Assembly: GCF_037893185.1 (NCBI RefSeq)
Contig: NZ_CP140772.1
Span: 5,084,001 to 5,148,000 of the forward strand
DNA: 64,000 nucleotides
Reading direction: 5' to 3'
Source: Chitinophaga sp. 180180018-3
GTDB lineage: Bacteria; Bacteroidota; Bacteroidia; Chitinophagales; Chitinophagaceae
The position numbers and the translations under genes were made by a program. The notes beneath the pieces were generated by a model. That model made no database searches. It was not told the origin of the DNA and worked only from the letters and a program-made list of their open reading frames with translations. Positions 54,271 through 58,031 of the stretch are shown here, one piece after another (position 1 is the first letter of the stretch; the number at the start of each line of letters is the position of its first letter).

Positions 54271-56061
54271 CTATCGGTCTCTATACGCCATACTCACCAC
54301 TTTCCCGATACCGCCTGAAAAAGACTGGTATAACTGCAATGGCGCATTAATATCGGGCACATCATAAATATCCATCATGCCCGAGGTGGCGGGAGCCCCC
54401 TTCATATAGGTGCATACCACCAGTTTCCGGGAAAGAGCGATATATCTTACAGCATTGAGATTGAAATCACTAATAGAATTAAAACGCTGGAACTTCATAA
54501 GGGAAATCGACCTGTTGCCGTAATCTTTCATGAGTATACTACGATTGGCAACGGCGTCATATTCATAGACTTTTCCTCCAACACAATAAAAAAGATAACC
54601 CTTATCCGGACTTGCGGCAAATTGCGTAGCACCGGCGATTCCCTCCCCTACGATTTCTCCATAATAATTTTGCTGGCCTTTAAAGGTAAAACGTGCGAGA
54701 AATTTTTTACCATTGGTATGGTCCTGCAATACGGCGAACACTTCCCCACTATTGAACGGTACATACTCCATATACAGCAGATCCTTGCCTGTATTAAAAT
54801 CGAAAAGGGTTCCATTATTAAAAGGAACACAGCTGGTTCCGGAGCCGGGATAACGGTAAAAGGCGCCTTTATCTGTGTCGTATAATACGCCCGTGGGCAC
54901 CCAACTGGATTTGTTGATCGCCGCCCAGCGGGATGGCGTAAATGGCGTACCATCTGTTTTGTTGTTAACAGGACCTTCAATGTACCCCTGGTCGAAATGA
55001 TATACATTCTTATCCGCATACAGCAATCCACCGTACACACCCAGATAGAACTGCGAGCCAGCCCAGTTTGTGACCGGTGGCGCCGGGTTCATAGCCATTC
55101 CCAGATCATAGCTGGGATTATATTCCAGCGTATCCGGCCCAAGTGCTACTGCATTCTTACTGGTGCCAACGTAAATAGCCACTGTACCATTGGCTGGTGG
55201 GCTGGGGTACATTGAATACCCCGTTTCTACAAATGCGGGTATCCCTGTAGCGATATAAGCTGATGACATTATTTTAAGAATATCGGTATAAACCGTATCG
55301 GCATTGCCACGATGAGATATTATATCCAACCGGCTATTTCCATTTTCCATATCACACAACAATAGCCACCCCTCATAGCTGGGTGCACTTACAGTAAGAT
55401 TGAAATAGAAATCCTTGCCCGTGAAGGAAGATACCGCCCCCGAGAAAGTAGTTCTGTTTCCGTTAAACATACCTGTGGTAATGGTAACTTCCTTCACAGC
55501 TGTAGGCAATGTCTGCAACTGTATGGTCTTACTACCAGTCCAGGGCGCCAATTCCTGCGGTCTGTAACCAACGAATGAAACAATTACCGCGTCCTTTGTG
55601 TCTGGCAGCTGCAGGTTGAAATTTCCTGAAGCACCGGACAATACGCCTATATGAGTACCTTTTACAGCAATAGTGGCGCCCGGGAGCGGGCGCCCATTGT
55701 CATCAACCACTTGACCCTCTATTTGGTTGTGTTGGGCCGGTGCCTGAACAGGCGCCGGCATTTCCTTCTTTAGCTGTTGGATCACGATTTCGTTATTCGG
55801 CCGGATCTCATAAGTCAGCTGAGCCGGCCTCAAATAGGTATCCAGTACAAGCGGCACGGGAGTATTTTTTACATTAACATCAAAGCGCCAGTCACGTGGC
55901 AACATGTTGTTATTGTAAATGAACTTGTAAGTCGTTTGTTTCATGATCTCTTTAAAGAATTGAGGAAACGTAACTCCCTTTTCCGACATAGTCATCTGCG
56001 CATAGCAGGCCGATCCCAGCATACAAAATGCCAATAACAAAGCAATACGGAACCGCATCAT
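54271..56061 (-). CDS. Chimeric protein: SusC-type N-terminus joined to PKD-like lipoprotein C-terminus
   Basis: 596 residues. Signal peptide (1-21); an STN domain (about 22-95: FPQFFKEIMKQTTYKFIYNN); a carboxypeptidase-like regulatory domain (about 114-183: IEGQVVDDNGRPLPGATIAV); and the start of a SusC plug (VTITTGMFNGNRTTFSGAVS, then FTGKDF, to residue 218). Instead of plug and barrel, the text switches to YFNLTVSAPSYEGWLLLCDM, the characteristic C-terminal region of Bacteroidota PKD-like family lipoproteins, and runs on as that protein to the stop. In intact loci a SusC gene is followed by SusD, other lipoproteins and a PKD-like gene. An in-frame deletion from SusC into the PKD-like gene explains this. 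It follows FecR and an ECF sigma factor, which usually control SusC. Confidence 0.85.
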   Translation of the reverse strand: MMRFRIALLLAFCMLGSACYAQMTMSEKGVTFPQFFKEIMKQTTYKFIYNNNMLPRDWRFDVNVKNTPVPLVLDTYLRPAQLTYEIRPNNEIVIQQLKKEMPAPVQAPAQHNQIEGQVVDDNGRPLPGATIAVKGTHIGVLSGASGNFNLQLPDTKDAVIVSFVGYRPQELAPWTGSKTIQLQTLPTAVKEVTITTGMFNGNRTTFSGAVSSFTGKDFYFNLTVSAPSYEGWLLLCDMENGNSRLDIISHRGNADTVYTDILKIMSSAYIATGIPAFVETGYSMYPSPPANGTVAIYVGTSKNAVALGPDTLEYNPSYDLGMAMNPAPPVTNWAGSQFYLGVYGGLLYADKNVYHFDQGYIEGPVNNKTDGTPFTPSRWAAINKSSWVPTGVLYDTDKGAFYRYPGSGTSCVPFNNGTLFDFNTGKDLLYMEYVPFNSGEVFAVLQDHTNGKKFLARFTFKGQQNYYGEIVGEGIAGATQFAASPDKGYLFYCVGGKVYEYDAVANRSILMKDYGNRSISLMKFQRFNSISDFNLNAVRYIALSRKLVVCTYMKGAPATSGMMDIYDVPDINAPLQLYQSFSGGIGKVVSMAYRDR

Positions 56062-56205
56062 ACAATAATGGTTGGTTGCTGACTTTTACCTGATTCACAC
56101 AAGCTGCGTCAATATTTAAACTATAGATTCTGGTGATTCAGGTACAGGCAAAGCAATTCCCTCCGCCGTAAGGGCAGTCTTTGTTCAGTATCTGCAACAA
56201 ATTTG

Positions 56206-57357
56206 TTATTTAGCTAACCGGGCTTTAATACGATTATTCTTTAGGGAAAATTCCACTGCTCCGGTTGCTGAAAGAGCAGACAACACGTTCTCCAATGATG
56301 ACGAGCGTTCCATGATTGCGCTGAATCGCAGCGCAGCTACTGCATCATCTGCTTCAAATTTCATATCATACCATCTCGACAATAAACGTAATATCACATC
56401 CAACCTTTCGTTATCGAAATTGAAATAACCATTCTTCCAGGCGATGGCCTGTTCTGTATCTGCGGCCCGCACAGGTATTACAGCTGAGGGCTTGTGCGCT
56501 ACTTCCGATTCCTGCCCCGGCTGCAGTATCACAGCCACTGCATTACGGTTCTCCACCTTCACCTTTCCGGAAAGCAGTGTAGTCAGGGTAGCTGCTTCAT
56601 CCTCATAAGCATTGATGTTGAATTTCGTTCCCAACACCTGCAACATCTCATATGGTGTAGATACAACAAATGGTCTTGCATCCTGCTTTACCTCCAGGTA
56701 TACTTCCCCGGTAACATCAATACGTCTTTCTTTATCCGGAAAAACAGTAGGATACCTTACCGATGAAGCAGCATTCACCCACACCTTCGTACCATCGGGC
56801 AGAACCAGACTGAATTGTCCGCCACGTCCGGTTTGCAGCGTATTATAGCTTACATCGGTCAACGGATCACCAGCGGTGTATACCAGCTGCCCTTCCTGTT
56901 GTGATACAACAGCTGCTCCCTGGTTGAGTACGCGATGCCCTCCGCTGTCCAGCGTTAGCTGCGAGTTATCCGCCAGTACCAGTACGGCCTTGCTGCTTCC
57001 GGGCTGAATGGCGGCCAGGCTTGCCGGGCCATGAACTGACTCTGTCCGGAATAAGAAAATATATCCCGCTGCTACCATCAACAGCAAAACAGCTGCTGCA
57101 GCCGCAGTGCGCCGCCATACCCTCCATCGCCGCACCTTTCCCTGATGTTCTTTTATCTGCTCAAATATCTGCTCCCGCAATGCCAGGTCTTCCCCATCCT
57201 CTGCCGGCTCCTCCCAGGCTTCTTCCATCATTTCCTCCAGCTGCGGCAAATAAATGCCTTCCCTGATCATACCAAACAACTGCCGTTTTTCATGGGTGGT
57301 GATGGTATTGGTCAGGTATTTGTCCATCAATTGCTGAAACTGTTCAGGTGCTGACAT
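56206..57357 (-). CDS. FecR-type anti-sigma factor
   Basis: 383 residues. N-terminal cytoplasmic sigma-binding helices (MSAPEQFQQLMDKYLTNTIT), a membrane helix (about 85-103, TAAAAAVLLLMVAAGYIFLF), a FecR domain (about 160-260, GGQFSLVLPDGTKVWVNAAS, RRIDVTGEVYLEVKQDARPF) and a C-terminal DUF4974 (about 310-380). It carries the signal from an STN-type receptor to the sigma factor. Upstream ECF sigma factor and downstream STN-containing gene complete the usual set. Confidence 0.94.
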   Translation of the reverse strand: MSAPEQFQQLMDKYLTNTITTHEKRQLFGMIREGIYLPQLEEMMEEAWEEPAEDGEDLALREQIFEQIKEHQGKVRRWRVWRRTAAAAAVLLLMVAAGYIFLFRTESVHGPASLAAIQPGSSKAVLVLADNSQLTLDSGGHRVLNQGAAVVSQQEGQLVYTAGDPLTDVSYNTLQTGRGGQFSLVLPDGTKVWVNAASSVRYPTVFPDKERRIDVTGEVYLEVKQDARPFVVSTPYEMLQVLGTKFNINAYEDEAATLTTLLSGKVKVENRNAVAVILQPGQESEVAHKPSAVIPVRAADTEQAIAWKNGYFNFDNERLDVILRLLSRWYDMKFEADDAVAALRFSAIMERSSSLENVLSALSATGAVEFSLKNNRIKARLAK

Positions 57358-57428: not shown

Positions 57429-58031
57429 TCACCTTTTTATTTCCGTCAGCAGCCAGATGACCAGCAAAGCGTGGCCACCCCGCTCACGAACGTACGTCCT
57501 TACTGTTTGAAGCGCTCTGATAATATGGCTCTTTACAGTAGCCGGCGCAATATTCAGCTGGTGGGCTATCTGGGCATGGGTAAGGCCTTGTTCCCGGCTG
57601 AGTTTAAATATTAATGATTGCTGGGGCGATAATCGGGTTATTGCTTCCTGAATCATCATGACAGTTTGCTTGTATTCCATCAACGCTTCCGGAGTCAGTT
57701 CATCTTCCAATGACAACTCATCAGCCGGAATAATTACTTCGGCTGCTTTTCGGCTGAGTTGGTTCATAATCGTATTCCGCGCCATGATGAACAGCCATGC
57801 ATCAAAATCTTCCACCTCCCTCAGATACCGCCTCTTTTCCCACAACCTGATAAACACAAGTTGTACTGCATCCCGCGCTTCTTCAGGATGTTTAAGGAAT
57901 GACAAGGCTAATTGATGGATACGGTTCCAGTGAAGGTCGAAAAGATGCCTGTAGGCTTGTTCATCATCCGCAGCAACCCTCTGTAGCAGGGATGCTTCGT
58001 TATATTCCTGGTTGACTGACAATATTAACAA
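57429..58031 (-). CDS. ECF sigma factor (FecI-like)
   Basis: 200 residues. Region 2 (ASLLQRVAADDEQAYRHLFD, SFLKHPEEARDAVQLVFIRL, LWEKRRYLREVEDFDAWLF) and region 4 (LSPQQSLIFKLSREQGLTHA, QIAHQLNIAPATVKSHIIRA). A short hydrophobic tail follows (HALLVIWLLTEIKR). TTG at 58031 is the only plausible start; no ATG is in frame. It lies 71 bp upstream of fecR. Their only obvious local target is the chimeric gene. Confidence 0.92.
   Translation of the reverse strand: MLILSVNQEYNEASLLQRVAADDEQAYRHLFDLHWNRIHQLALSFLKHPEEARDAVQLVFIRLWEKRRYLREVEDFDAWLFIMARNTIMNQLSRKAAEVIIPADELSLEDELTPEALMEYKQTVMMIQEAITRLSPQQSLIFKLSREQGLTHAQIAHQLNIAPATVKSHIIRALQTVRTYVRERGGHALLVIWLLTEIKR

Follow-up and report, generated by a model that had tools for sequence, protein, structure and literature searches.

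What becomes of a gene that begins as a SusC protein and ends as a PKD-like family lipoprotein, and can its product still act on the regulators next to it? The question is raised by an open reading frame in the window, i.e. the whole 64,000-nucleotide stretch of Chitinophaga sp. 180180018-3 analysed here. An earlier note had described this frame as an in-frame SusC/PKD-like chimera and the probable deletion scar of a Sus-like locus.

Architecture of the chimeric gene

The chimeric ORF (54271..56061, 596 aa, on the minus strand as are all features of the window given below) starts with ATG, contains no internal stop and is open throughout. Frame and coordinates agree with the earlier note, and the two parts are matched by the TIGR04056 model and by relatives of the PF16407 family, respectively. 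Residues 1-216 correspond to the start of a SusC protein, residues 219-596 to a PKD-like lipoprotein without its lipobox and PKD domain. The typical SusC start that had been claimed consists of a signal peptide (residues 1-22, 55996..56061), recognised from the sequence and nearly identical to the start of the intact SusC P0080, an STN signalling domain (residues 23-96, 55774..55995), and an NTE/CarbopepD_reg_2 domain (residues 112-184, 55510..55728) that is found by Pfam at 114-172 and matches the solved SusC NTE 9hfj. The STN assignment rests on a Pfam match at 45-95, a confident region of the structure model and the alignment to intact SusC; the Pfam match is below the cut-off, which also holds for the intact relative L063. 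A Ton-box-like stretch, VKEVTITTG (residues 189-197, 55471..55497), is placed by alignment to intact SusC and by its location after the NTE, where an excerpt of PMC7782687 also puts the Ton box (DEVVVTG in the Bt1763 example). The SusC part ends with the beginning of the plug, FSGAVSSFTGK (residues 206-216, 55414..55446), as aligned to 6 intact SusC proteins.

The SusC/RagA model TIGR04056 is the only NCBIfam model that matches the chimera. It covers residues 113-218, i.e. model positions 2-106 of 981, and scores 62.3 bits, the cut-off being 368.25; the match ends at the breakpoint that the earlier note had put at about residue 218 (55410). The Pfam search gave no Plug match, and the remaining plug and the barrel are absent, as is also seen in the alignment to intact SusC and in the model. 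The suggestion that the product lacks any pore is thus supported.

The rest of the ORF (54271..55407) is made up, according to homologues and the model, of the last PKD strand and a BtuG-like beta-propeller. The lipoprotein family had been named correctly, but about three quarters of the protein are retained rather than the C-terminal half. PF16407 itself is not matched in the chimera at E <= 1; it is found in P0002 and in the L063 protein. The PKD-like relatives start, as read by eye, with a Cys-containing lipoprotein-type signal (e.g. ...ASCMKD), whereas the chimera begins as SusC. In the structure model (mean pLDDT 87.4) the STN region, the NTE and the BtuG-like propeller are all predicted with confidence.

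A search of 5.8 billion proteins, with 7998 candidates scored, gave 75 matches. Among the matches listed, PKD-like lipoproteins (PF16407) come closest to the second part, with about 64% of the query covered. The best of them, P0002, has 71% identity over 64% of the query; the propeller part is 49-71% identical to 18 members of the family (P0002-P0019) and 37-38% identical to P0020-P0022. SusC proteins match the first part only, the closest intact one found being P0080 (81% over residues 1-218). Both families are therefore those that had been claimed. No protein among the matches listed, except the window's own, has both parts together. A family-wide search (294 genomes with at most 4 candidates scored in each, i.e. 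a weak negative) gave no homologue of the same architecture, the two other matches being to the lipoprotein part only, and the same holds for the genus loci described below. A literature search found no paper on the 'PKD-like family lipoprotein' or on DUF4843 with SusC, from which we make no wider claim of being unpublished, and by its listing nothing relevant on SusC/SusD fusions or remnants.

In terms of known systems, the chimera shares with the SusC/RagA proteins (TIGR04056) of ECF sigma/FecR loci the signal peptide, STN, NTE, Ton-box-like stretch, first plug residues and upstream sigma-FecR pair, but it has no full plug, barrel or SusD partner. Likewise, it has the predicted STN of the cell-surface-signalling TonB-dependent transducers but not their transport barrel. 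With the PKD-like lipoproteins (PF16407), encoded by the fourth gene after FecR in relatives, it shares the C-terminal propeller; the SusC start replaces lipobox and PKD domain, and surface display is not expected. The modelled propeller also resembles that of the BtuG-type surface lipoproteins, which bind cobalamin.

The intact locus in relatives and the extent of the deletion

Upstream of the chimera lie a FecR anti-sigma factor (56206..57357) and an ECF sigma-70 factor (57429..58031, with TTG as the listed start), both intact in domain searches, as had been noted. The FecR-SusC intergenic region (56062..56205) is retained: in a comparison of seven sequences, made by eye and with a rough alignment, short stretches are common to the window and the relatives. 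SusD is absent from the locus.

The second part of the chimera is matched in 47 of the 79 genomes of the genus search (present genome included). Seven relatives were mapped, and all seven have the order sigma-FecR-SusC-SusD-DUF4843-PKD in a single direction, with a SusC of about 1100 aa and a PKD-like lipoprotein of about 500 aa. Sigma, FecR, SusC and PKD were assigned by similarity in each; the middle genes were assigned as SusD and DUF4843 lipoprotein by similarity in five (L063 by Pfam, the other four via the named copies L070-L073) and by size and position in two. The named GTDB genomes were also scanned, where some strains give two loci, and the best 80 of 89 relatives were kept, most of them more distant than the seven mapped ones. 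SusC, SusD, DUF4843 and PKD are kept as separate genes in 78 of these best 80 of 89 loci, 75 of them in plain order with FecR and 3 as variants (L082 without FecR at a contig edge, L096 with DUF4843 as two ORFs and L144 with SusD as two); the other two (L076 and L111) are cut by contig ends. A fused SusC-PKD gene occurs in none of the 80. The SusD of L144 (Chitinophaga pinensis YS-16) is split into short ORFs of 104 aa and 119 aa, possibly by a frameshift, and in G041 a second FecR homologue lies directly 3' of the PKD-like lipoprotein (L064:5500-6645).

At the junction the SusC side stops at SFTGK and the lipoprotein side picks up at YFNLTVSAPSYEGW. Here intact P0080 reads FTGKEL and intact P0002 reads FTDTYFYL, which, together with codon comparison to relatives, places the join at codons D217-F218 (55408..55413) and refines the earlier breakpoint. 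The distance between the reference points is 5074-5373 bp in 6 relatives and 51 bp in the window, i.e. 5023-5322 bp are missing (6 out of 7 relatives; L069 was not measurable by the motif used). By comparison with these loci, the deletion took out most of SusC and the whole of SusD and of the DUF4843 lipoprotein, and it stripped the PKD-like lipoprotein of its lipobox and PKD domain. Barrel, SusD and PKD domains had been noted as gone, and the DUF4843 lipoprotein has to be added to them. A long repeat at the breakpoints was considered and rejected: at most a few bases around GA(T) might be taken as shared, and ancestral DNA would be needed to fix the point exactly.

Translocation instead of deletion was also rejected. 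The present genome was searched for the absent part of SusC (E <= 1e-60), for SusD, for DUF4843 and for PF16407, and only diverged paralogues were found, at two loci (SusC 37% and 36%, SusD 36% and 34%, DUF4843 25% at one of them). The missing parts thus have no close copy elsewhere in the genome, so that the change is a deletion and no rearrangement. With the conserved order in relatives, the spacing difference of 5.0-5.3 kb (6 out of 7) and a second deletion in the genus (see below), the suggestion that the locus is the deletion scar of a Sus-like operon is well supported by the sequence comparisons. The simplest reading is a single event, limited to one lineage. The origin is ordinary, i.e. 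a deletion that stayed in frame by chance; it is the product that is unusual. We note that the two paralogous loci (C1 4.627-4.633 Mb and 1.486-1.492 Mb) carry SusC, SusD and PKD-like genes (36-37% for the SusC part searched), therefore the system type is not lost from the genome. A further SusC paralogue near 4.896 Mb of C1 (L152:3618-6911) has a TAA near its start, and its longest ORF begins after this stop.

The second deletion is found in G013, where a different event removed the same operon, about 8.8 kb in comparison to the intact G031 locus. At this scar (L179:8508-8685) the initial 15-17 codons of sigma adjoin the lipoprotein's final 45-48 codons, which are in a different frame. The downstream flank is 85% identical to G031 over 3.7 kb, the 157 bases immediately upstream are 81% identical and a region further upstream is 88% identical over 3 kb; between the 157-base stretch and this region G013 has about 4.2 kb that are absent from G031. 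Taken together, the two scars mean that deletions have removed the operon on at least two occasions in the genus, and they show how such operons are lost. In G022 the PKD-like lipoprotein gene is in two frames, apparently frameshifted (L181:10532-12021), and in G039 a remnant of 37-38 residues of the lipoprotein C-terminus lies apart from the intact locus of the same stretch (L180:13585-13695).

Age, constraint and the possible action of the chimera

Neither half of the chimera shows a clear acceleration in comparison to its closest intact relative, be it in branch lengths or in relative-rate counts. In a first tree of 8 sequences the own branch of the SusC part made up 0.094 of the tree length (bootstrap 0.07-0.122, 40 replicates) and that of the other three segments 0.056-0.066; once the divergent L069 is left out, the 95% intervals all overlap, the SusC part being still the highest (0.124 vs 0.089-0.099). 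In the SusC part, changes unique to the window were not in excess of those in intact P0080 (6-9 vs 7-10, five outgroups), and the propeller gave 25:28, 38:25 and 26:24 against P0002 with three outgroups (largest chi2 2.68). Of the 53 SusC-part positions without variation among 6 relatives, three differ in the window (G44T, R201G and K203R), the comparable counts in the other six sequences being 0-5 of 50-55. Two of the three follow the Ton box, and all three sites are unchanged in P0080. The longer first-tree branch and these three residues are weak hints of relaxation, in the SusC part only. The lack of a clear acceleration means that either the deletion is recent or the product is constrained, two cases that the rate tests cannot separate.

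We consider it likely that the locus is a recent, probably near-neutral deletion scar of about 5 kb whose exported, pore-less product holds the sigma factor OFF and the operon quiet. The deletion of about 5.0-5.3 kb would have left the frame intact and fused the SusC start to the propeller. Since the SusC-type signal peptide is kept, the chimera should reach the periplasm, presumably as a soluble STN-NTE-linker-propeller protein without barrel and without lipid anchor. There it would bind FecR constantly, because there is no barrel to report a ligand, and would shield FecR from proteolysis, so that the sigma factor stays OFF; the scar would in this way keep its own operon quiet. The prediction draws on Pseudomonas, where, in an excerpt of PMC11637429, complete inhibition of Fox, Fiu, Iut and Hxu signalling followed when exported signalling domains were overproduced, i.e. 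a barrel-less exported STN shuts such switches off. Like the chimera, these isolated transducer domains have a signal sequence and an STN without a barrel, but they are engineered and overproduced and have no NTE or propeller. The STN domains of SusC proteins act in anti-sigma signalling, as stated in an excerpt of PMC7782687. The intact sigma and FecR and the confidently modelled STN, NTE and propeller domains are consistent with this action. The earlier note had suggested that the product could still signal to FecR; the parts for this are present, but judging from the excerpted Pseudomonas work constant inhibition is likelier.

Several points speak against such a lock. It is a prediction that presumes expression of the chimera, and a single chromosomal copy in Bacteroidota that carries a propeller may behave differently from the overproduced Pseudomonas domains or be degraded. 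In the classic view, as given in an excerpt of a review (PMC9249621), the STN-FecR contact passes on the inducing signal, inhibition being unmentioned there. If the sigma factor drives its own operon, the lock would also mean that less chimera is made. The Pfam match to STN does not reach the cut-off, although the same is true of intact L063, and the excerpt of PMC7782687 puts the NTE before the STN in sigma-controlled SusC, whereas in the chimera and L063 the STN comes before the NTE. Nevertheless, the chimera would be a natural version of the Pseudomonas overproduction experiment, a chromosomal barrel-less STN beside intact FecR and sigma, and it offers a simple way to test whether, in Bacteroidota, a free STN keeps switches of this kind locked OFF.

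The hybrid might not be made at all or be degraded at once, leaving the sigma/FecR pair simply without a receptor. Damage is also seen in other copies of the locus type (the G013 deletion and the two-frame gene of G022), and a propeller that is normally displayed at the surface may be a target of periplasmic proteases. We hold such a dead locus to be unlikely, given that the chimera has neither stop nor frameshift, its domains are predicted to fold and the upstream region is retained. The opposite, domestication of the chimera, is possible from the sequence. Selection would then maintain the fusion as a pore-less sensor, with the periplasmic propeller binding a ligand or stabilising the protein and thereby modulating the STN-FecR contact. 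The frame is kept, both breakpoints lie inside a linker that is predicted to be disordered and joins folded domains, FecR and sigma are each intact, neither half is clearly relaxed, and natural pore-less STN-NTE proteins adjoin FecR and sigma in the genus (next section). However, an in-frame join has a 1 in 3 chance, a recent deletion equally predicts normal rates, and three otherwise invariant residues of the SusC part are changed here and not in P0080. With the fusion in one genome only and no homologue of the same architecture found in the searches, we regard this form of domestication as quite unlikely. Of the earlier alternative of a neutral scar or a domesticated sensor, the scar is supported and is probably near-neutral; the sensor is unsupported.

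It is very doubtful that the propeller-STN fusion is a newborn regulator, in which case the deletion would have made the uptake operon into a self-contained periplasmic switch over FecR/sigma that acts on sigma targets elsewhere in the genome, as a natural counterpart to the engineered signalling-domain constructs. An artefact of assembly or subculture, which the restriction of the fusion to a single genome might suggest, is highly improbable: the assembly consists of a single 8.13-Mb contig, a close copy of the missing pieces was not found elsewhere in it, and the identical protein is present on 4 database contigs, one being the present genome and the other three not necessarily independent.

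Pore-less STN-NTE proteins of the genus

A protein such as the chimera gains plausibility from proteins of the same genus that have an STN and NTE without a barrel and lie beside FecR and sigma. The present genome encodes, near 6.005 Mb of C1 (L151:5056-6858), a 600-aa STN-NTE protein that contains GxQVAGFxN repeats and lacks a SusC barrel. Its gene directly follows those of sigma and FecR, and that of a second repeat protein comes next. Like the chimera, the 600-aa protein has STN and NTE on a non-SusC body beside sigma and FecR; this class is widespread and conserved and has a repeat-rich C-terminus, whereas that of the chimera is a PKD-family propeller. The LA_2272 model matches the L151 protein with a score below its cut-off, and the database names of its relatives are 'STN and carboxypeptidase regulatory-like domain-containing protein' and 'LA_2272 family surface repeat-containing protein'. 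From its sequence the L151 type looks like a natural class of pore-less sensors. Its relatives are found at E <= 1e-40 in 72 out of 79 genus genomes, the present one included. Besides the own region, 20 of the 71 others were examined, chosen along the identity range: in 7 of the 20 neither sigma nor FecR was detected at E <= 1e-8, and in the own region and the other 13 both adjoin the L151-type gene. Proteins of this kind are common and often belong to sigma/FecR cassettes, and they may be of more importance than the chimera.
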